From Polaribacter sp. SA4-10 (GTDB taxonomy: Bacteria > Bacteroidota > Bacteroidia > Flavobacteriales > Flavobacteriaceae), in contig NZ_CP019331.1 of NCBI RefSeq assembly GCF_002163835.1, positions 1,426,001 through 1,490,000 on the forward strand: a stretch of DNA of 64,000 nucleotides, read 5' to 3'. How positions within the stretch are numbered: position 1 is the stretch's first letter; each line of letters begins with the position of its first letter. Position numbers and translations under genes: made by a program. Of the stretch, positions 1 to 64,000 are shown one piece after another. The notes under the pieces are model-generated. The model was not told the DNA's origin. It worked only from the letters and a program-made list of their open reading frames with translations, and searched no databases.

Positions 1-2326
1 TGATTATAAAAAAAACACACTTTTTGCTAAAGGAATAAAAGATAGTACAGGTTATACTCAACGACCAATTTTTAAACAAGGCAGTGAAGAGTCTGAACAG
101 GATTCTATGATCTATAACTTTAAAAGTAAACGTGCTTTAATTTATGGCCTAAAAACCAAACAAGGTGAAATGTTTACCTATGGAGAAAAGACAAAACGTG
201 TTAATGATTCTACTATTTTTATCAGAAAAATACGTTTTACAACTTCTGAGAAAGATAATCCCGATTATTATATCACTACAGATAAGGCAAAACTAGTTCC
301 AGGAAAAAAAATTATAGTAGGTGTAAGTAATTTAGTTTTAGCAGATGTTCCTACTCCATTATTTTTACCTTTTGCTTATTTCCCTATGACAGAAACTAGT
401 GTTTCTGGTTTTTTAATTCCTGCTTTTGATACAGGAAGTAGTCGCAGAGGAATTGGTTTTCAAAATGGAGGTTATTATTTTGCAATTAGTGATTATCTGG
501 ATTTAACACTACAAGGAGATATCTACTCCAATGGAAGTTGGGGTATTAGAACCTCATCAAAATACAATAAAAGGTATAAGTTTAGTGGTGGCGTTAGTTT
601 TAATTTTGAAAACAACATTAGCGGAATTAGAGGTTTTGATTCCTATAGTAAATCTAACAATTATAATATTAGGTGGTCTCATAGTCAAGATTCTAAAGCC
701 AGTCCCAACTCAAGATTTTCGGCTTCTGTAAACTTAGGTAGTAGTAAGTTTTTTAGAGAATCTTTAAATCAGCAAAATGTTTCTCAGACTCAAACAAATA
801 CGTTAAGTTCTTCTGTTAATTATAGTAAAACTTTTGTTGGTACACCTTTTAATATGAGTTTAACAGCAACTCATCAACAAAATACAAATACAGAAAAAAT
901 CACCATGACTTTACCTTCTTTAACGGTAAACATGAATAGAATATATCCGTTTACAGGAAAAGGTGGTATTAAGAAAACTCCCCTTCAAAAAATGGGATTT
1001 AATTACACATTACAAGGTCAGTATTTAGTTAATACAGATGATGATGAGTTTTTTACAAAAAAAATGTTTGAAACTGCAAGAGCTGGAATGCTACACAGAA
1101 CAGGAACCAATACCAACATTAAACTCTTTAAGTTTTTTACGTTATCACCAAGTGCTAGTTATGAAGAAACTTGGCAGTTTGATTACATTCAAAAAAAGTA
1201 TGATGTTACAGACAATGTTGTTGTTACAGATACTTTAAGAGGATTTAAAAGTTACAGAGAATATAATACAGGTATGAGTCTGTCTACTAATATATATGGT
1301 ACTTTTAATTTTAAAAAAGGAAGATTAAAAGCGATAAGACATACTTTTAGGCCTTCTATTTCTTATTCCTACAGACCCGATTTTAAAGATAAATATATTA
1401 AAGAAGTACAACAAAGCACAGACCCTTTAGACTTGGCTGAATATACTGTCTTTGACCAAGGGATTTATGGCACCCCTTCTTCTGGAATAAGTAATTCTAT
1501 AGGAATTTCACTAAACAATGTTTTAGAAGCCAAGGTTGCTCCTAAAGATCCTGACAGTGATGAAGAGGAGGAAAAAATAACAATTTTAAACAATTTAAAT
1601 TTTAATAGTTCTTATAATATTGCAGCTGATAGTTTAAGGTGGTCTCCAGTAAGTTTTTCTACAGGAACAAGATTGTTTAAAGATAAATTAGCAGTTAATT
1701 TAAGTGGTTCTTTTGACCCTTATCAAGTAAATGAAAGTGGATCTAGAATTAATAAATTTAACCCTAATGTTTTAAGGTTAACAAATGCTAGTTTAACGGC
1801 AAATTATTCTATTTCTAGTACTGATTTTGGTGAAGATAAAGACAAAGAAAAAAACAAGAACGGAAATGGGGCGCAAAATAATGTTGATGTAATTGGCGCA
1901 GATATAAATCCTACAGATAGATCTGGAGGAAGAAACAATGTTAATTCTAGTAAGGATAATAAAGATAAAAAAGAAGAATTATATAATGCTAAAATACCTT
2001 GGTCTGTAAACTTAGCCTATTCTACTAATTATAGAAATAATGGAGTTGATGGTGGTGAAATTGGTATACATAGTCTTATGTTTAGTGGTAATGTAGAATT
2101 ATCTCCAAAATGGAAAATGGGTTATTCTTCTGGTTATGATATTAAAGATGGCGCATTTACCTTTTCTAGGTTTAATTTTACAAGAGACTTAGATAGTTGG
2201 CAATTTAACTTTAACTGGGTTCCTTTTGGAACAAACTCTTCCTACACCTTTTTTATTGGTGTAAAATCTTCTGTTTTAAGTGATTTAAAATGGGACAAAA
2301 ACAAACCTGCAGATAGATTGTTTTAA
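1..2326 (+). CDS. lptD: LPS assembly outer membrane protein LptD (5' end outside window)
   Basis: The reading frame is open from base 2, so the start lies upstream of the window and 774 codons plus the stop are visible. LptD is the outer membrane beta-barrel that inserts lipopolysaccharide into the outer leaflet. The visible part begins within the periplasmic OstA-like region. The LptD family stretch with the words YGEKTKRV, KARLVPGKK-like TDKAKLVPGKK and LPFAYFPM lies at about bases 180-390. After it come long alternating beta strands rich in N, S, Y and F typical of a barrel. An acidic/low-complexity insert (DEEEEK, then N/K/D-rich) falls at about 1555-1975, probably in loops. Assignment rests on the conserved N-terminal part; the barrel is poorly conserved in Bacteroidota. 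Confidence 0.85.
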   Translation, partial: DYKKNTLFAKGIKDSTGYTQRPIFKQGSEESEQDSMIYNFKSKRALIYGLKTKQGEMFTYGEKTKRVNDSTIFIRKIRFTTSEKDNPDYYITTDKAKLVPGKKIIVGVSNLVLADVPTPLFLPFAYFPMTETSVSGFLIPAFDTGSSRRGIGFQNGGYYFAISDYLDLTLQGDIYSNGSWGIRTSSKYNKRYKFSGGVSFNFENNISGIRGFDSYSKSNNYNIRWSHSQDSKASPNSRFSASVNLGSSKFFRESLNQQNVSQTQTNTLSSSVNYSKTFVGTPFNMSLTATHQQNTNTEKITMTLPSLTVNMNRIYPFTGKGGIKKTPLQKMGFNYTLQGQYLVNTDDDEFFTKKMFETARAGMLHRTGTNTNIKLFKFFTLSPSASYEETWQFDYIQKKYDVTDNVVVTDTLRGFKSYREYNTGMSLSTNIYGTFNFKKGRLKAIRHTFRPSISYSYRPDFKDKYIKEVQQSTDPLDLAEYTVFDQGIYGTPSSGISNSIGISLNNVLEAKVAPKDPDSDEEEEKITILNNLNFNSSYNIAADSLRWSPVSFSTGTRLFKDKLAVNLSGSFDPYQVNESGSRINKFNPNVLRLTNASLTANYSISSTDFGEDKDKEKNKNGNGAQNNVDVIGADINPTDRSGGRNNVNSSKDNKDKKEELYNAKIPWSVNLAYSTNYRNNGVDGGEIGIHSLMFSGNVELSPKWKMGYSSGYDIKDGAFTFSRFNFTRDLDSWQFNFNWVPFGTNSSYTFFIGVKSSVLSDLKWDKNKPADRLF

Positions 2327-2327
2327 A

Positions 2328-2360
2328 TTAGCAGTTAGCAGTTAGCAGTTAGCAGTTAGC
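2328..2360. repeat. Heptanucleotide tandem repeat (unit agttagc)
   Basis: Directly after the lptD stop codon there are four perfect copies of the 7-bp unit agttagc preceded by a partial copy (ttagc). The tract is intergenic and lies about 40 bp before the ridA start. A second 7-bp repeat array occurs at 62584-62639, so heptamer arrays recur in this genome. No function is evident. Confidence 0.9.
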
Positions 2361-2398
2361 AAAAATGAAAAATTTTCAACTTTGAAACTTATAAAAAC

Positions 2399-2782
2399 AT
2401 GAAAAAAATAATAACAACAAGTAAAGCACCTGCTCCAATAGGGCCTTATAATCAAGCTGTATTAAGTGGGAATACGCTATATACTTCTGGCCAAATTGCT
2501 ATAAACCCAACAACTGGAGAGTTGGTTTTAGATTCGATCAAAGAAGAAACGAAACAAGTAATGGAGAATTTAAAAGAAGTTTTAGCTGCAGCAGAGATGA
2601 CTTTTGAAAACGTCATTAAAACATCAATATTTATATCAGACATGAATAACTTTACTGAAATAAATGCAGTTTATGGAACTTATTTTAATGAAGAAACTGC
2701 GCCTGCTAGAGAAACAGTTGAGGTAGCTAACTTACCTAAGTTTGTAAATGTTGAAATTAGTGCAATAGCAGTTAAATACTAG
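2399..2782 (+). CDS. ridA: RidA family enamine/imine deaminase
   Basis: This 127-residue protein covers the whole YjgF/YER057c/UK114 (RidA) family. RidA hydrolyses reactive 2-aminoacrylate and related imines made by PLP enzymes. Family words are visible: APAPIGPYNQAV near the N-terminus, YTSGQIAI, and the C-terminal PARETVEVANLPK, which holds the conserved arginine that binds the substrate carboxylate. Length is normal. It is a short monocistron between lptD and a bidirectional terminator. The protein is probably a cytosolic trimer, inferred from the family. Confidence 0.93.
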   Translation: MKKIITTSKAPAPIGPYNQAVLSGNTLYTSGQIAINPTTGELVLDSIKEETKQVMENLKEVLAAAEMTFENVIKTSIFISDMNNFTEINAVYGTYFNEETAPARETVEVANLPKFVNVEISAIAVKY

Positions 2783-31450: not shown

Positions 31451-33844
31451 TTAACTTAAAATTCTTTTATACCATGGTTTTTTAACCTCATCTATGTAGC
31501 CATTTCCATAGCCATAGCCATAGCCATAGCCATAGCCATAGCCATAGCCATAACCATAACCTTTTGTCGTGTCAGTATCATTCAAAACAATAGCAATATT
31601 TGGTAATTTTTTCTCATCATATAATGTTTGAACAACATTTAACATCCGTTTATCCAAATAATTGGCTCTTGTAACATACACAAACATATCTGCATACTTA
31701 GCTATTAACAAAGTATCGGTAACTAAGTTTACAGGTGCAGTATCAACGATAATAAAATCATATTCCTTTTTTACTTCATCAAATAACTCTTTAATTTTAA
31801 CGCTCAATAATAACTCTGCAGGATTTGGAGGAATAACACCAGATGCAATAATATCTAATCCTTTAATCTCAGGAATCGAAAATTTAACATCATTCAAAGA
31901 AATATTTTCATTGGTTATAAAATTTGTGATTCCTTTTCGTTCAGGAATACCTAAATATTCAGTAACCTTTGGAGCTCTAAGATCCATACCTAATAATAAA
32001 ACTTTTTTGTTAGATAAAGAAAGAGCTGCGGCAAGGTTAATTGAGGTAAATGATTTCCCTTCCCCACTTGTAGTAGAGGTAATAAATATTGTCTTACCTA
32101 AATCATTATTAGGTAACATAAAATCTAAGTTAGTTCTTATTAAACGAAAAGCCTCTGCAGTACCTGTTCTAGAATCGCCTCCAATAATAACTTTATCATT
32201 TCCTTCAGAATGCGGTATATCTCCTATAAAAGGTATTGTTGTTAAATCTTCAATATCTTTTCTAGAATGAATTTTGGTATCTAAAAGGTTTTTAAGATAA
32301 ATAATAATAAAAGGAATTAATAGCCCAATTAATAGTGCCCCTACATAAACCATTTTCTTTTTGGGCGATATTGCCCCCCCTGAACTGTAAGCGAAATCTA
32401 TAATTTTTGCATTTGGCACTGTAATGGCCAAAGAAATAGCCGTTTCTTCTTTCTTCTTTAAAAGATATGAATAGAGACCAGATATAATTTCTTGTTGCCT
32501 AGCAATATCAATAAAACCTCTTTCTAAAATTGGTATTAATGAAACCTTAGAAGATACTTTAGATGCTTCTTCTTTTAATTGACTCAACTGAGATTTTAAT
32601 GAGTACCCTAAATTTGAAATACTTCTTTTCAGGTTTTCTTTTACTGAAATTATTTCCCTTGTATATTCAAGTAATAAAGGGTTTTTATTTCCAGCACTTA
32701 AACTTAATCTATTCTTTTTATTTACTAAATCATTGTATATTGCTATAGATTGAGAAATCGCTTCATCTGAAAACCCTAAATTTTGTGGAAGAATTTCATA
32801 TTTTTCATACTGCTTATTAAGACTCTCACCAATCCAATTAATTAAATTTAATTGCGTCTCTAATTCAAGGATCTTTTCATTATTAATTGAAGCTTTTGCC
32901 AAAGCTAACTCGCCTTCAATAGATAAACCAGTAATATTATTCTTGTTTTTATAATTTTTAACATCATCTTGAATTTTTTCTAAATCCAAACCAATTTTAA
33001 CAAGCCTATCATCAATAAATTCTTTTGTCTTTTTAGAAACCTCACTCTTATCATTAATCGCATCAATATTATATTGCCTAACTAATTCATTCAAGATATC
33101 TTCTGCTTTTTCTCTTACAGGATGATTTATAGACAATCTTAAAACACTCGATTGTTTACTAACAGCACTAATATTAATATCCGAATACCTAGATATTGTA
33201 TTCGATTTATTTGCTATATTAACAAAAATAGTAAAGTTATTCTTTTCATTAAAATGTTTAGTTTTAACAACTTTAAAAACGCCCACATTTGATGTTAACA
33301 ACTCATCAAAATTATAGGCCGTTATAAACTCATTATTAAAATTTTTAATTTCAAATTTATCCTTCGAAAGGAAAGACACTACAAAAGAAGTATCCTTATT
33401 TTGCTGAATTAAATTTCTTGAGATAAAATTAATTTTTATAGGGTTGTCTTTATATATTTCTGTTTTTTTTACTCTGCCCTCAACAGAATAGGTAGTAAAT
33501 AAATCTAATGCATCTACAACTGCACCAATTATTTTTCTTGATTTTATGATTTCAATTTCATTATCTGGATTATTACTAGAACTTCCACCTATTATTCCTA
33601 AATCCTTAAAAGCTTCTAATTCTTTAGAAATCCCAGACTTTTGGTTATCCTTAATCATAATAGTAGTCGTTGCACTATATTGAGGAGTCGTATACCTTAA
33701 ATAGGTATAGGCAACAATTAATGCCAATATTATTCCTAATAAAAACCATTTCCTGTATAAAAGATACTTTTCAACCTCTTCTCTAATATTTAGAGCATCG
33801 TTATCCATTCTATTTGTAACACTATTTTCTTTGTTCATTTGCAT
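31451..33844 (-). CDS. wzc: Wzc-like polysaccharide copolymerase / tyrosine autokinase
   Basis: A 797-residue inner membrane protein controlling capsule polymerisation and export. It has an N-terminal Wzz domain with a first membrane helix at about residues 33-50, and a long coiled-coil periplasmic region at about 240-450. A second helix at about 508-530 is followed by a cytosolic BY-kinase domain: Walker A STTSGEGKSFTSINLA, A' LLLGMDLRAP and B DFIIVDTAP. The C-terminal tyrosine cluster is unusual: nine Gly-Tyr pairs plus GNGY at residues 762-783, encoded by a hexanucleotide repeat. A start two codons later is possible. It begins 3 bp after wza. Confidence 0.95.
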   Translation of the reverse strand: MQMNKENSVTNRMDNDALNIREEVEKYLLYRKWFLLGIILALIVAYTYLRYTTPQYSATTTIMIKDNQKSGISKELEAFKDLGIIGGSSSNNPDNEIEIIKSRKIIGAVVDALDLFTTYSVEGRVKKTEIYKDNPIKINFISRNLIQQNKDTSFVVSFLSKDKFEIKNFNNEFITAYNFDELLTSNVGVFKVVKTKHFNEKNNFTIFVNIANKSNTISRYSDINISAVSKQSSVLRLSINHPVREKAEDILNELVRQYNIDAINDKSEVSKKTKEFIDDRLVKIGLDLEKIQDDVKNYKNKNNITGLSIEGELALAKASINNEKILELETQLNLINWIGESLNKQYEKYEILPQNLGFSDEAISQSIAIYNDLVNKKNRLSLSAGNKNPLLLEYTREIISVKENLKRSISNLGYSLKSQLSQLKEEASKVSSKVSLIPILERGFIDIARQQEIISGLYSYLLKKKEETAISLAITVPNAKIIDFAYSSGGAISPKKKMVYVGALLIGLLIPFIIIYLKNLLDTKIHSRKDIEDLTTIPFIGDIPHSEGNDKVIIGGDSRTGTAEAFRLIRTNLDFMLPNNDLGKTIFITSTTSGEGKSFTSINLAAALSLSNKKVLLLGMDLRAPKVTEYLGIPERKGITNFITNENISLNDVKFSIPEIKGLDIIASGVIPPNPAELLLSVKIKELFDEVKKEYDFIIVDTAPVNLVTDTLLIAKYADMFVYVTRANYLDKRMLNVVQTLYDEKKLPNIAIVLNDTDTTKGYGYGYGYGYGYGYGYGYGNGYIDEVKKPWYKRILS
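31508..31561 (-). repeat. In-frame hexanucleotide repeat encoding the Wzc tyrosine cluster
   Basis: On the plus strand there are seven perfect copies of atagcc followed by two copies of ataacc, 54 bp in all. On the coding strand each unit is a Gly-Tyr codon pair. Gain or loss of units by slippage would keep the frame and change only the number of tyrosines. Confidence 0.97.
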
Positions 33845-58571: not shown

Positions 58572-60008
58572 TTATTTTGATTTAAAATTATGGTAAAGTT
58601 TTACAAAAGGAAAAATTACTTGATTTCTAAAAATAAAAAATGATAAAAAAAATGAAAGCAAAAGAACAATTAGTTTTAAACTTTTCTCATTGTAACCAAT
58701 TATGTGAAGTAAGAATAGGCTAACACCAGGTATAACTAGTATTTTAAAAGATTTAACATGATACATCATTAAATTGATTAATGATTTTTTTAATGATAAA
58801 ATCATTATATATGATTTTAAAAAAAAATTAATAAATAAAGCTACATTAACCATTATTGCAACATAATATAATTCGCCTAAATAAACACCTATAACCAAAC
58901 ATATTATAGTTATCGGTTTTTCATAAAATGTAATAAAATTTAAATATTTAGCCTTTCCTATTGACTTAACAACACTATCAATTAGAATGTTAAATGGTAA
59001 TACAACAATCCCTAATGACATAATCTTAAAAATGGGAATCATCTCTACCCATTTAGAACCAAAAACCAAATTAACAATATCACTTCCAAAAATATAAAAA
59101 ATAATTGCACAAGGAAAAATGACACTTGAAACTCCTAAAAGAAATTGACAATAAATATTAAATATTCTTTGAGTATCATTTTGAATTTTAGAAAAAACAG
59201 GATAAATAACTCTACCAATCGCAGACATAATTGTATTTACAGGCATTCGGACTGTTGATAACGATTTAGAATAAATACCTAAATTTAAATCTCCTAAATT
59301 ACGACCAATTAAGACTTTATCAATAACAGAAGCAATAGTACCAAAAACTCCATTAATAAAAATAGCGAAACTAAACTTTAGAAGTTTCCTTATTGAAGCG
59401 AAACTAAATATAAATGAAGGAAGCCATTTAGAAAACCACCAAATTACAACAGCATATATAAGAGGCTTTAATAGATGCAGTATTACAAGTGACCAAACAC
59501 CATAACCAATAGACGCAAAAAATATTGCAAAACTGAAACTTATGAAAGAACTTAGAATTTCTGAAATTCCAATTTCTTTAAAACGCATTTCTTTTTCTAA
59601 TTTAATTTTTTGAACCATCCCAATACTATTAATTAGGACAATAAAACTCATTACTTTTGCAAAAGGAATGAGTTTCACATTTTTATAAAACTCGGCAATA
59701 AAATTCGCGGAAAAATAAATTGAAACAGTAATTATTACAGATATAATAATATTATACCAGAAAATAGTAGAATAATCCTTATCCTGAATGTTTTCTTTTT
59801 GGATAAGAGCCTCACCAAACCCAAAGTCTAAAAAAAGTCTACTAAAACCTGTTATTACAAGTACCATTCCAATAATTCCATATGCTTCAGGTCCTAAAAC
59901 TCTAGCTAAATATATACCTAATGTAAAATTAATTATTACAGCACCTAAATTAGATGTTGCCGTCCATAAAACACCTTTAATAAATTGGTTTTTTAGATTT
60001 GCAGACAT
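58572..60008 (-). CDS. Wzx-type lipid-linked oligosaccharide flippase (WzxC-like)
   Basis: A 478-residue membrane protein of the MOP/polysaccharide biosynthesis family with about twelve to fourteen hydrophobic helices. The N-terminal FIKGVLWTATSNLGAVIINF, then YLARVLGPEAYGIIGMV and FLDFGFGEALIQKE are typical of WzxC-like exporters. It would flip the undecaprenyl-linked repeat unit to the periplasm for the Wzy-like polymerase at 44261-45553. It begins one base after the ugd stop codon. Confidence 0.93.
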   Translation of the reverse strand: MSANLKNQFIKGVLWTATSNLGAVIINFTLGIYLARVLGPEAYGIIGMVLVITGFSRLFLDFGFGEALIQKENIQDKDYSTIFWYNIIISVIITVSIYFSANFIAEFYKNVKLIPFAKVMSFIVLINSIGMVQKIKLEKEMRFKEIGISEILSSFISFSFAIFFASIGYGVWSLVILHLLKPLIYAVVIWWFSKWLPSFIFSFASIRKLLKFSFAIFINGVFGTIASVIDKVLIGRNLGDLNLGIYSKSLSTVRMPVNTIMSAIGRVIYPVFSKIQNDTQRIFNIYCQFLLGVSSVIFPCAIIFYIFGSDIVNLVFGSKWVEMIPIFKIMSLGIVVLPFNILIDSVVKSIGKAKYLNFITFYEKPITIICLVIGVYLGELYYVAIMVNVALFINFFLKSYIMILSLKKSLINLMMYHVKSFKILVIPGVSLFLLHIIGYNEKSLKLIVLLLSFFLSFFIFRNQVIFPFVKLYHNFKSK

Positions 60009-60009
60009 A

Positions 60010-61410
60010 TTATTTACTTTTCCCTAAACTATATATTTTAAAACCAATTTTTTCAAATTTTTCTTTGTCTAGAATTTTACGGCCGTCAAAAATAAAGGCC
60101 GGTTTTAACATACTGTCGTAAATACGCTGCCAATCATAGGTTACAAACTCATCCCAATCCGTTAAAACAGCAATCGCATGGGCATCTTTAGCCGCTTCAT
60201 ACGGGTCATTTACAACGTTTAATAATTCTTTGTTTTTGATGTCATCCCTCGTATTTAAATATGCTAGATCTGCATATACTTGATACTCTTGTACCTTAGG
60301 ATCATATACATGAACATTTGCATGTTCTTCTAACAAACCATCTGCCACATAAATGGCAGCAGATTCTCGTGTGTCATTGGTGTCTTTTTTAAAGGCCCAG
60401 CCTAAAAACGCTATTTTTTTTCCAGAGACCGTATTGAATAAGGTCTTGATAATATTATCAGAAAATCGTTTTTTTTGATGGTCATTCATAATAATGACTT
60501 GCTCCCAATAGTCAGCAACAGCATCCAATCCGTAAGATTTTGCGATATATACCAAGTTTAAAATATCTTTTTGAAAACAAGAACCTCCAAAACCAACAGA
60601 AGCCTGTAAAAATTTGGGTCCAATTCTACTATCCATACCAATGGCTTTTGATAATTCGTTGACATCAGCTCCTGTTACTTCGCACAATTCAGAAATTGAG
60701 TTAATTGAAGAAACACGTTGCGCCAAGAAAGCATTTGCGGTGAGTTTAGACAACTCTGAGGACCATACATTAGTAGTTAAAATTTGAGCGCTGGGTATCC
60801 AGTTTGCATACACTGCTACCAGTGCCTCCATCGCCTCTTTTCCTGCTACTGTTTGATCCCCACCAATTAACACCCTATCTGGGTTGTATAGATCTTGCAC
60901 TGCAGTACCCTCTGCTAAAAATTCAGGATTGGATAATATTTGAAAATTCACCCCATTTCCTGTATTGTCTAAGATCGTTTTTATAGCTTCAGCCGTTCTT
61001 ACGGGTAAAGTAGATTTCTCTACTATTATTTTATCAGTTTTAGCAACGCGCGCTATTTGACGCGCACACAATTCAATAAATTTTAAATCTGCCGCCATTC
61101 CTTTTCCTTTTCCATAGGTTTTGGTAGGCGTATTTACAGAAATAAAAATCATATCTGCTTTTTCAATAGCATCATCAACATCGGTAGTGAAAAATAAATT
61201 TCTATTTCTTGCCACTTTTACAACAGCATCTAAGCCAGGTTCATAAATTGGCAATTTACTTAAATCAGCATCATTCCAATCTGCGATGCGTTGTTCATTT
61301 AAATCTACAACTTCAACATTAATATGTGGACATTTTTCAGCAATTATAGCCATGGTTGGCCCACCAACATAACCAGCACCAATACAACAAATATTTTTAA
61401 TAATTTTCAT
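60010..61410 (-). CDS. ugd: UDP-glucose 6-dehydrogenase
   Basis: A 466-residue NAD-dependent dehydrogenase, of the longer form similar to animal UGDH. It starts [17 protein letters not shown] and has [18 protein letters not shown], the catalytic cysteine in [14 protein letters not shown], and [17 protein letters not shown]. It makes UDP-glucuronate, the substrate of the UDP-xylose synthase at 42107-43042. Glucuronate itself may also be a residue in the polysaccharide, which would make it acidic. Confidence 0.97.
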
Positions 61411-61454
61411 CTTACTTTTTTTTATTCAAATTATTTAATCTAAATAACATCAAT

Positions 61455-62582
61455 TTACTCAGCTTGTTTCAAGATTTCATGACCCGCTTTTAATAAAACA
61501 ACATCCTTGTTCATTAACGAGACATCACTTTTCATCATATCTTTTACTAAGGAAGCCAAATCATGTTCTGGAACCCATCCTAGTTTTGTTTTAGCTTTTG
61601 TTGGGTCTCCAATTAACAAATCTACTTCCGTTGGACGGAAATAAGACGGATCTACAGACAACACTTCTTTACCTATTTCTATTTGAAAATCTTTATGATT
61701 ACAAGCAACAACATACGCTTTTTCGTCTACACCTTCTCCTTTAAATTCAACCTCTATACCAACTTCAAGAAAAGCAAAACGTACAAAGTCTCTTACTGTT
61801 GTAGTAACACCTGTTGCAATTACCCAATCTTCTGGTTTGTCTGCTTGTAAGATCATCCACATCATACGCACATAATCTTTGGCATGACCCCAATCACGTT
61901 TTGCTTCTAAATTACCTAAAAATACTTTTTCTTGTAAACCTAAAGCAATTTTAGCTACTGCACGCGTAATTTTCCTTGTTACAAATGTTTCACCTCTTCT
62001 TGGTGATTCATGGTTGAATAAAATACCATTACACGCAAACATATCATACGCTTCGCGATAATTCTTAGTGATCCAAAATCCGTATATCTTAGCTACTCCA
62101 TAAGGTGATCTCGGATAAAATGGAGAAAGTTCATCATAAAAACCTTTGTCATTTTTATTTTCTGGCATCCCCCCATACAATTCTGAAGTAGAAGCCTGAT
62201 AAATTCTTGTTTTCTTTTCTAGTCCTAAAATTCGTACCGCTTCTAAGATTCTTAAAGTACCTAATCCATCAACATTACCCACATATTCTGGAGTATCAAA
62301 AGAAACCGCAACATGAGACATCGCTCCTAAATTATAAATCTCATCTGGCTGACATTCTTGGATGATACGCGTCAGATTCATTGCATCCGTTAAATCTCCG
62401 TAATGTAATTTTAGTCTTAAATCTGGAGCATGAGGATCTTGATATAAATGATCTATTCGATCTGTATTAAACAAAGAAGACCTCCTCTTAATACCATGTA
62501 CCATATAGCCTTTCTCTAATAGCAATTCTGCTAAATAAGACCCATCTTGTCCTGTAATTCCTGTAATTAATGCTACTTTCAT
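61455..62582 (-). CDS. gmd: GDP-mannose 4,6-dehydratase
   Basis: A 375-residue SDR converting GDP-mannose to GDP-4-keto-6-deoxymannose. The N-terminus reads [20 protein letters not shown] with the NADP-binding [14 protein letters not shown]. Catalytic words are [10 protein letters not shown] and [13 protein letters not shown] (YxxxK). Its product feeds Fcl for GDP-L-fucose and could feed the Per-like aminotransferase at 47326-48423. The heptamer repeat array reaches to within one base of its start codon and forms its 5' leader. Confidence 0.97.
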
Positions 62583-62583
62583 T

Positions 62584-62639
62584 GTTCGTTGTTCGTTGTT
62601 CGTTACTCGTTGTTCGTTGCTCGTTGTTCGTTGTTCGTT
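62584..62639. repeat. Heptanucleotide tandem array (unit gttcgtt) before gmd
   Basis: Eight 7-bp units follow one another: six gttcgtt, one actcgtt and one gctcgtt. The array directly precedes the gmd start codon on the minus strand. A shorter, degenerate version lies at 63030-63051 on the other side of the four-helix bundle gene. Confidence 0.93.
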
Positions 62640-62647
62640 AAACGATT

Positions 62648-62675
62648 GACGGTGGACGACAAACGATAATCGTTT
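62648..62675. repeat. Left copy of composite repeat flanking the four-helix bundle gene
   Basis: It contains gacggtggacga (62648-62659), identical to 63053-63064, followed by an odd palindrome aaacgat-a-atcgttt (62661-62675). With the neighbouring heptamers it forms a composite unit that is repeated, in the same orientation, on the other side of the gene. Confidence 0.85.
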
Positions 62676-62678
62676 TTT

Positions 62679-63023
62679 TTACTTTAGTGATTTTATTAAT
62701 TTATACAACATCATTTTAATTCTTGTACATAATTCAAATAATTTCACATATTCTTCATTAGAAATATACGCTAAATCTTTTGCTAAAAACAATTGATAAT
62801 TTGCTTCTTCCAAAGACCCTTTTGCAATATATAAAAATTGTATAAACTCTTTTTTATACTGTCTTCCTTGACCTTCTATTATATTTGTTGGAACACTACT
62901 AGCACTTCTTCTTATTTGATTGGTTAACCCATATTTTTCTGAAGAAGGAAAGTGTTTTGAAACTAGGTATACATCAAGAGTTAATTGATGGGCTAATTTC
63001 CAAACCTGTAGTTTACATTCCAT
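62679..63023 (-). CDS. Four-helix bundle protein (23S rRNA intervening-sequence protein / Avd-like)
   Basis: A 114-residue all-helical protein of the S23/IVP four-helix bundle family, related to the Avd accessory proteins of diversity-generating retroelements. Family words are WKLAHQLTLDVYLV, FPSSEKYGLTNQIRRSASSVPTNIIEG in part (YGLTNQIRRSASSVPTNI) and GSLEEANYQLFLAKDL. Molecular function is unknown; members bind nucleic acid in some settings. It sits between fcl and gmd, which are usually adjacent, and is bracketed by direct copies of a composite repeat, suggesting insertion as a small cassette. No reverse transcriptase or variable-repeat gene is visible. Confidence 0.9.
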   Translation of the reverse strand: MECKLQVWKLAHQLTLDVYLVSKHFPSSEKYGLTNQIRRSASSVPTNIIEGQGRQYKKEFIQFLYIAKGSLEEANYQLFLAKDLAYISNEEYVKLFELCTRIKMMLYKLIKSLK

Positions 63024-63029
63024 TTTTTT

Positions 63030-63070
63030 GTTCGTTGTTACGTTGATCGTTGGACGGTGGACGAGAATCG
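63030..63070. repeat. Right copy of composite repeat flanking the four-helix bundle gene
   Basis: Degenerate heptamers (gttcgtt, gttacgtt, gatcgtt) at 63030-63051 are followed by gacggtggacga (63053-63064) and then gaatcg, paralleling the left copy. The identical 12-mers are 405 bp apart start to start. This copy lies between the fcl stop codon and the four-helix bundle start. Confidence 0.85.
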
Positions 63071-63073
63071 ATT

Positions 63074-64000
63074 TTACATTTTCACTTCTTTAATACTTTC
63101 TATATTCTCCAAAAACCAAGTATACGTTTTCTCGATCCCTTCTTCTAATTCTGTTGAATATTGCCAACCTAATTCTTTCATCTTAGAAACATCCATTAAT
63201 TTTCTTGATGTACCATCTGGTTTTTCAGCATCCCAAACAATTTGACCTGTATGACCTGTGATTTTTTGGATTGTCTCTGCTAATTCTTTTATGGTAATGT
63301 CTTTACCTGATCCTACATTGTACAAATATTCAGGTAATTCATTTTCCAAAGCATACACAACAGCTTCTGCCATATCATCTACAAATAAAAACTCACGCAT
63401 TGGAGTACCACTTCCCCATAAAACAACTTCTGAATTGTTATTGTTTTTTGCCTCATGAAACTTACGAAGCATTGCAGGTAATACATGAGAAGATTTTAAA
63501 TCAAAATTATCATGAGTACCATATAGATTCGTTGGCATTAAGCTTACATAGTCTTTACTAAATTGCTTTCTAATAGCTTGACATGACTTAACTCCTGTGA
63601 TTTTAGCGATTGCATACCACTCATTTGTAGGCTCTAGAGAATCTGTTAATAAATATTCTTCTTTTAAAGGCTGTGGTGCAAATTTCGGATAAATACAAGA
63701 ACTTCCTAAAAATATAAATTTATTAACCCCTGATTTTAATGCGCCATCAATTAAATTATTCTGAATTTGCATGTTCTCCATTAAAAAGGGATAGGGAAAA
63801 TCATTATTTGCTAAAATACCACCAACCTTAGCTGCAGCATCAATTACAATTACTGGTTTTTCAGTTGTATAAAAATCTTTAACAGCTTCTTGATTTCTTA
63901 AATCTAATTCTTTACTGGTTCTACCTAATAAATTAGTATACCCTTTTTTTTCTAAAGCTCTCCATACTGCCGAACCGACCATACCTCTATGACCAGCAAT
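63074..64000 (-). CDS. fcl: GDP-L-fucose synthase (5' end outside window)
   Basis: Fcl epimerises and reduces GDP-4-keto-6-deoxymannose to GDP-L-fucose. The frame is open to the right edge (IAGHRG before MVGSAVWRAL), so the start lies just beyond the window; an internal ATG at 63982 is not the true start. About 308 residues are visible. Typical words are MVGSAVWRALEKKGY, FLGSSCIYPKFA, EWYAIAKITGVK (YxxxK), PTNLYGTHDNFD and WGSGTPMREFLFVDD. It lies upstream of gmd in transcription, separated from it by the four-helix bundle cassette. Confidence 0.96.
   Translation of the reverse strand: MAGHRGMVGSAVWRALEKKGYTNLLGRTSKELDLRNQEAVKDFYTTEKPVIVIDAAAKVGGILANNDFPYPFLMENMQIQNNLIDGALKSGVNKFIFLGSSCIYPKFAPQPLKEEYLLTDSLEPTNEWYAIAKITGVKSCQAIRKQFSKDYVSLMPTNLYGTHDNFDLKSSHVLPAMLRKFHEAKNNNNSEVVLWGSGTPMREFLFVDDMAEAVVYALENELPEYLYNVGSGKDITIKELAETIQKITGHTGQIVWDAEKPDGTSRKLMDVSKMKELGWQYSTELEEGIEKTYTWFLENIESIKEVKM

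Follow-up and report, generated by a model that had tools for sequence, protein, structure and literature searches.

An S23-family gene between heptamer repeat arms splits fcl and gmd in Polaribacter: a probable operon-borne element of the 23S rRNA intervening-sequence type

ORFs of unknown function in odd inserts of rRNA genes have been known to encode S23 proteins since the 1990s. One such insert is the intervening sequence (IVS) in the 23S rRNA gene of Coxiella, which, according to the available excerpts of its description, carries an S23 ORF, is bounded by terminal inverted repeats and is excised by RNase III, with two or three heptamers, depending on the strain, directly upstream of the S23 start codon (PMC4990558). 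The operon S23 cassettes analyzed here resemble the IVS portrayed in those excerpts in that an S23-family ORF resides in a short insert with complementary ends and heptamers before the start codon (PMC4990558). Unlike the Coxiella IVS, which is located in rRNA, the insert that is our main subject lies between the protein-coding genes fcl and gmd, and its arms are direct and unpaired across the gene.

Several other described systems share some of these features. The rRNA insertions of CPR encompass LAGLIDADG, GIY-YIG and 23S_rRNA_IVP ORFs, with IVP and homing-nuclease ORFs sharing insertion sites and shorter, ORF-less versions present at some sites; in contrast to the operon cassettes, these insertions are in rRNA genes, and arms are not among the traits described in the available part of that paper (PMC11270868). 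The TAACTGA heptamers analyzed by MacGregor in 2015 form direct intergenic arrays, and in some Bacteroidetes, a close relative lacks the array at the corresponding junction; the accessible portion of the article handles them as direct repeats that may be regulatory, draws no link to S23, and contains no mention of the terms S23, four-helix and intervening (PMC4679880). S23 genes outside rRNA have been reported as well: 18 23S_rRNA_IVP genes were listed in cas loci, where they lie between operon genes such as cmr3 and cmr2 of Pleurocapsa, but the excerpts of that study present them as a function within cas loci and do not mention arms (PMC3936711).

We analyzed a window of 64,000 nucleotides from Polaribacter sp. 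SA4-10, in which a gene encoding a 114-aa S23/IVP four-helix-bundle protein splits a pair of genes that we take to be fcl (GDP-L-fucose synthase) and gmd (GDP-mannose 4,6-dehydratase), all three on the minus strand (Table 1). The protein belongs fully to the S23/IVP family, with highly significant profile matches to PF05635 (E = 4.7e-41; 139.7 bits against a cut-off of 33.8) and TIGR02436 (E = 4.5e-40; 136.3 bits against a cut-off of 24), sequence kinship to the solved structures 2gsc and 2rld, and nearest named relatives in Polaribacter. The profile search returned no match of this protein to a transposase or nuclease family. No rRNA match was detected at window positions 60000-64000, and the S23 gene is thus sited outside any rRNA gene. 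The ORFs, profiles and repeat search confirmed the original prediction of a 114-codon gene placed between heptamer repeats and two 12-mers and splitting fcl from gmd, and the proposed kinship with IVS proteins held in the form of the two family matches and the anatomy of the Coxiella IVS.

Table 1. Features of the fcl-gmd locus (window positions)
Feature	Positions	Strand	Basis
gmd (GDP-mannose 4,6-dehydratase), downstream neighbor	61455..62582	-	ORF; relatives
Downstream arm (gene sense): degenerate heptamers, TCGTTTA-type then AACGAAC-type, up to the gmd start codon	62583..62678	-	
Composite direct repeat, copy 1, including the 12-mer at 62648-62659	62636..62667	.	
S23/IVP four-helix-bundle gene, 114 aa	62679..63023	-	ORF, profile matches, PDB sequence relatives 2gsc and 2rld
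Upstream arm (gene sense): shorter heptamer array of the same flavor, from the fcl stop codon	63024..63073	-	
Composite direct repeat, copy 2, including the 12-mer at 63053-63064; 81% like copy 1	63041..63072	.	
fcl (GDP-L-fucose synthase), upstream neighbor; continues past the window end	63074..64000	-	ORF

Avd proteins of diversity-generating retroelements belong to a related family: the Avd models NF033474 and PF22296 match the S23 protein below their cut-offs (28.6 bits against 80 for the Avd equivalog). Avd is typically accompanied by a neighboring reverse transcriptase, whereas the fcl-gmd S23 gene is not; the sole RVT_1 match in the genome, at 2758873, is about 1.27 Mb away, beside the Avd-like gene L009. 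That locus (about 2758873-2760155 of contig C1 of G000) appears to be a diversity-generating retroelement, with a reverse transcriptase, the Avd-like gene and, as read by eye, an asparagine-codon-rich repeat downstream.

Both flanks of the S23 gene consist, by reading, mostly of a degenerate array of NCGNNNN heptamers, of which the 12-mer GACGGTGGACGA, with its two copies 405 bp apart, is a part and not a separate motif. The genome-wide search for this 12-mer, allowing up to one mismatch, returned only these two copies in the 3,435,762 bases (3.44 Mb). A GTTCGTT probe, at up to three mismatches, gave eight overlapping matches in the array (window 62577-62644) and hit one other place in the genome, at three mismatches. 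The direct-repeat likeness of the two flanks exceeds chance: the direct score of the upstream flank against the downstream flank is 31, the highest among 35 downstream flanks, with 22 for the runner-up (the broken gene L007/L008 was used in this comparison only). The inverted z-score is 1.8 or 2.6 in two runs, the z-score of the RNA duplex is about -0.5, and the fold z-scores of the two arms are 0.35 and -0.22; the predicted fold contains 0 pairs between the upstream and downstream arms across the gene, the downstream arm pairing locally instead. The arrays fill the entire space from stop codon to start codon, with no target-site duplication recognizable by eye. We infer that this unit, from the fcl stop to the gmd start, is probably an operon-borne element of the 23S rRNA IVS type, namely, an S23 ORF in sense orientation between two degenerate heptamer arms. 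As in the Coxiella IVS, a heptamer array is found upstream of the S23 start; the observations behind this assignment are that, at one junction, the whole unit is present in some genomes and missing from others, that array-only versions exist and that the arms share a locus-specific flavor.

To compare this junction among relatives, we searched 58 genus genomes for gmd and read 30 loci, 21 of which have fcl directly upstream (the nine without fcl in that position were excluded). An S23 gene is present in eight of the 21 junctions, belonging to the same subfamily and flanked by CG-type heptamers in four, to a subfamily with about 41% identity flanked by GAC-type arrays in three, and to a third type with GTTTAG-type arrays in one. 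Four junctions (L142, L143, L149 and L152) contain only an array, in a gene-less spacer of 77-103 nt with fold z-scores of -1.4, -1.5, -1.3 and -3.2, and the remaining nine are array-free, with gaps of 5-19 nt in eight and 46 nt in one. In the nearest relative among the 58 genomes (L140; gmd 97% identical), fcl and gmd are adjacent, separated by an array-free gap of 16 nt, and therefore, as predicted, the S23 gene is an insertion, unless it was lost in that relative. On a tree of fcl and gmd, the five junction states require 11 changes, compared to a mean of 11.1 for shuffled labels; thus, the junction switches state often and does not follow the tree. Among the sister pairs, our locus with its gene is joined by the empty L140, and the gene-bearing L141 by the array-only L142. 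The last 120 nt of fcl are 96% alike in the gene-bearing L141 and L144, each of which is 88-89% like the array-only L142, but in the three preceding windows, L141 is closer to L142 than to L144, and further out it is not, a mixed signal that provides a hint of co-conversion beside the cassette at this one site.

The four gene-less, single-array junctions are also what would be expected if intergenic heptamer arrays, born by slippage, came first and served as landing sites for S23 genes that inserted later and split the array. We consider this order of events unlikely: eight of the 21 junctions, that of the nearest relative among them, are 5-19 nt long and array-free. The corresponding part of the original prediction, that the repeats are landing sites, is not supported, given these array-free empty sites, and hence array and S23 gene look like one unit.

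The genome of SA4-10 contains eight S23-like loci: the fcl-gmd one, four further open genes, a gene interrupted by a single stop, a broken gene and a weak match beside the reverse transcriptase. Across the genus, S23 matches were found in 49 of the 58 genomes, from 0 to at least 16 per genome among the matches listed. For the comparison of flanks, loci L010-L098 were assembled from the best match of each genome, taken automatically, and 60 rows picked from the listed matches, nearly all without internal stops, a sample that over-represents intact, high-scoring genes; 94 of loci L001-L098 were analyzed, with L007/L008 (one broken gene), L009 (the retroelement Avd) and L029 (contig end) omitted. 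The control set comprised 650 ORFs from 864 kb of the SA4-10 genome and was not purged of S23 or GxxExxY genes.

In these 94 loci, representing 33 sites, the upstream flank matches the reverse complement of the downstream flank far better than it does after permutation (16.6 vs 10.8; z = 20.8), and the direct score is elevated as well (14.2 vs 10.9; z = 11.6); the RNA duplex energy is lower than in permutations (-29.8 vs -20.8 kcal/mol; z = 17.3). Individually, 59 of the 94 S23 loci show an inverted z-score above 2, compared to 19 of the 650 control ORFs; duplex energy separates the two sets less well than sequence (z < -2 in 29 of 94 vs 22 of 650). SA4-10 itself is not the best example of this pattern: among its six scored loci, the inverted z-score reaches 2 only in L001 and L005, the others being at 1.9, 1.2, 1.4 and -0.5. 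In predicted folds of whole cassettes, the median number of pairs between the two arms is 20 for the 33 genus sites, 24 for a phylum-wide set and 28 for the GxxExxY loci discussed below, compared to 8 in 118 control genes, 30 of which also show 15 or more such pairs. Both neighbors are on the strand of the S23 gene in 93 of the 94 loci. S23 genes are found, among other places, between groES and groEL, at several junctions of the suf operon, between leuC and leuD, between ddl and coaD, and ahead of hemE; we take the neighbors to be these genes from their protein sequences.

The flavor of the arms varies by site (CAAAGT, TTAGTATT, GTGTAATTG, AGCTTTTAGC, CAGTTTTCAG and more). The mean arm score is 10.5 between sites and 16.6 within a site, and arms of the same site match within a strain better than across strains (20 of 20,000 permutations were as good; 287 when duplex energy was used). 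Arm flavor does not appear to be inherited with the S23 subfamily across sites: the likeness rises only where protein similarity exceeds 0.5, and a Mantel test of 37 representatives was negative, with 1377 of 2000 permutations as high.

These features bear on the possibility that the unit is transposon-like, with the arms acting as terminal repeats that a trans-acting transposase or recombinase recognizes as DNA or DNA hairpins. The inverted arms, the presence or absence at one site, the range from 0 to at least 16 listed matches per genome and the resemblance of the array-only versions to miniature elements would all fit. Yet, known transposases act on terminal repeats that are alike between copies, unlike the site-varying S23 arms, and the strong sense-orientation bias also runs against such a unit, so that we regard it as quite unlikely. 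REP/RAYT and MITE elements resemble the S23 cassettes in that hairpin-type repeats surround a small gene and gene-less copies exist; the S23 cassette differs from them in that S23 matches no transposase family and the arms are not conserved between sites.

The S23 ORF is under purifying selection (median dN/dS of 0.18 over 206 same-site pairs), and therefore, the protein does something. Together with the sense orientation and the extension of the array to the gmd start codon, this would also suit an ordinary gene that is stable in a polysaccharide operon, with repeat-rich spacers that regulate translation, a role suggested for heptamers upstream of start codons in the available part of MacGregor's article (PMC4679880). 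Such a gene is hardly to be expected, however, to be absent from 13 of 21 fcl-gmd junctions and to recur in the same arrangement in other phyla and at further junctions, among them groES-groEL, suf, leuC-leuD and hemE, and we consider this explanation very improbable.

The arms are not confined to the genus. Among 29 phylum loci, 19 have an inverted z-score above 2, and 22 have neighbors on the same strand. We further fetched 80 of 319 named S23 relatives, many from metagenome bins, and used 78 (L266 and L295 were omitted), 56 of which show an inverted z-score above 2, compared to 13 of 113 neighboring genes (22 with either kind of arm), some of these controls being S23 genes themselves. All 25 named loci of the fcl-gmd subfamily exceed a z-score of 2 in one orientation or the other (direct in 22, inverted in 12), and so do 47 of the 53 more distant loci, 44 of them with inverted arms. 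Direct repeats, as originally predicted for this gene, are accordingly the rule in its subfamily, but most other S23 genes carry inverted arms. By record title, the distant loci span Bacteroidota, CPR, Nitrospirae, Atribacterota, Acidobacteriota, Dehalococcoidia, Bipolaricaulota, an ANME-1 archaeon and others. Neighbors are on the same strand in 44 of these 53 and in 21 of the 25 subfamily loci. Among lags 4 to 12, a period of 7 is the best in all 50 arms of the subfamily loci, 78 of 106 distant arms, 37 of 66 genus arms and 30 of 58 phylum arms, and each of the four S23 sets peaks at lag 7. An S23 gene also precedes gmd in an epsilonproteobacterial (L258) and an ignavibacterial (L294) record, as judged from the downstream start. 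Location in rRNA was considered for other S23 loci as well and rejected, with 0 rRNA matches in 40 scanned loci of other groups.

Thus, most of the sampled S23 genes lie in sense orientation between operon genes and between degenerate heptamer arms that are usually inverted and have a site-specific flavor; the fcl-gmd locus, with its direct arms, is a special case of this general pattern. This pattern suggests a widespread, barely described class of tiny selfish elements; we found no description of heptamer arms on operon S23 genes in the open-licence literature. If S23 genes normally reside in heptamer-armed cassettes between core genes, culturable flavobacteria would allow tests of where S23 comes from, how it spreads and what it does, and the cassettes would be a possible origin of intergenic heptamer arrays.

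Array-like spacers were apparent at the groES-groEL junction, where, in 30 loci, five gaps match S23, one is 44 nt long and 24 span 71-130 nt (solo, mid and long denote gap-length classes here and before hemE, where most long gaps look like other genes; array types, remnants and gene names were read by eye). Of the 30 spacers (L368-L397), 29 are at least 71 nt long, those with S23 included, and many are array-like, of differing flavor; they might have an effect on how groEL is expressed. A lag-7 z-score above 2 was obtained for 13 of the 24 gaps of 71-130 nt, compared to 5 of 87 control gaps; only this signal stands out, the hairpin strength of the gaps not being special (mean fold z of -1.26 vs -1.54 in the controls). 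The enrichment of arrays without a gene would also agree with arrays that precede the S23 insertions, and heptamer arrays not tied to any gene family are described, in the portion of that article available, for Beggiatoaceae, cyanobacteria and some Bacteroidetes (PMC4679880). Against this order, two groES-groEL S23 genes between arms, L369 (197 nt) and L382 (158 nt), have large internal deletions and fit decay toward the array-only state; also, gene-less arrays are few in 864 kb of the SA4-10 genome according to a k-mer scan, a weak detector that missed the known S23 arrays too and was replaced by the gene-wise comparison of flanks. These observations suggest a series from the full cassette, through a deleted ORF, to an array, and in this genus, S23 cassettes may explain the changing array-like spacers of core operons such as groES-groEL.

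How elements of the IVS type would persist in operons can be outlined as follows. The co-transcript might fold at the arms and be cleaved there, RNase III being the published cutter of IVSs, which would let the host operon tolerate the insert. The arms could grow by slippage and stay alike through copying from one hairpin-forming DNA strand to the other; the S23 protein would bind the arms and help the unit to spread or persist, and the spread from strain to strain could occur by recombination through the flanking genes. Excision and the role of the S23 protein are conjectural parts of this outline, and movement to new sites is presumed from the distribution alone. Maintenance of arm complementarity at the RNA level was considered but rejected, given that no set shows a clear excess of G.U over A.C mismatches (172 vs 197). 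With the fcl-gmd arms unpaired and no such excess, an RNA stem is unlikely to keep the arms complementary, and DNA hairpin-strand copying and slippage probably do so. By virtue of the anatomy that the operon cassettes share with the Coxiella IVS, the simplest reading appears to be that they form one element class.

The original prediction was of a mobile or recombining module that uses the heptamers as landing sites and is moved in trans, with the gene family linked to mobility or reverse transcription. Presence or absence at the junction and the gene-less arrays partly support the module itself, but not the landing sites or reverse transcription supplied in trans by the host genome: RVT_1 is absent from the single-contig genomes G028 and G020, which contain at least 13 and at least 9 S23 matches, respectively. 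Altogether, RVT_1 was detected in 26 of the 58 genus genomes, several S23-rich complete genomes being without it, and a resident RVT_1 reverse transcriptase is not needed.

The top small-gene outlier in the control set encodes a GxxExxY protein (PF13366, PD-(D/E)XK). We fetched 30 genus loci of this family and used 29 (L198 was omitted), in which the inverted z-score exceeds 2 in 22 cases, the inverted or direct one in 25, and the neighbors are on the same strand in 27; 28 of the 58 arms have a best period of 9 or 10, and one has a best period of 7. The GxxExxY gene lies before hemE in six of these 29 loci, and S23 occupies the same junction in three cases, with neighbors that are 82-95% identical, and a separate reading of 30 hemE loci, not all from the same genomes, again yielded six and three. 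That S23 shares a junction with a gene of nuclease type links IVSs with homing-like elements. In L136 (12178-12555; G000 about 3280178-3280555), the GxxExxY gene upstream of hemE lies between CGCAAAG-type arrays of about 100 nt, which repeat one another in direct orientation (direct z of 23) and look palindromic.

Small GIY-YIG genes of the genus were represented by 30 fetched loci (L308-L337), of which 26 were used and four short ones omitted. With 140-nt flanks, a length at which there is no control, 22 of the 26 have repeat flanks with z above 2 and longer palindromic units. In L311, L319 and L335, for example, the gene lies between repeats such as TCGAGCGCAGTCGAGAGG and TCATTGCGAGGAACGAAGCAATC; gene-less copies of repeats of this type were noticed by eye before hemE (L355, L362, L364 and L365) and groEL (L375 and L391). 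The repeats around GIY-YIG genes may have been described already. Among the short ORFs beside the named loci, thirteen pass the arm cut-off: seven belong to S23, GxxExxY and GIY-YIG account for one each, and four are of other kinds, including an ORF inside an array (families were assigned by reading).

The GxxExxY and GIY-YIG families thus have a layout similar to that of S23, with other repeat units. We tentatively raise the possibility, short of favoring it, that S23, GxxExxY (PD-(D/E)XK) and GIY-YIG are interchangeable cargoes of a single class of tiny selfish cassettes homing into core-operon junctions of bacteria and some archaea. The repeat unit would depend on the cargo (7 nt with S23, about 9-10 nt with GxxExxY and longer palindromes with GIY-YIG), rRNA IVSs would be only the best-known branch, and loss of the ORF would leave the array as a new 5' spacer, as at groEL and hemE, so that the class would keep rewriting the untranslated regions of core operons.

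Two further arrays in the SA4-10 genome, at window positions 2301-2400 and in L121 (1911-2070), consist of (CAGTTAGC)n, each followed by the same AAAAATGAAAAATTTT stretch, which might be the beginning of an S23 gene that has since been lost. At window positions 31461-31600, an (AGCCAT)n hexamer run lies within an ORF.
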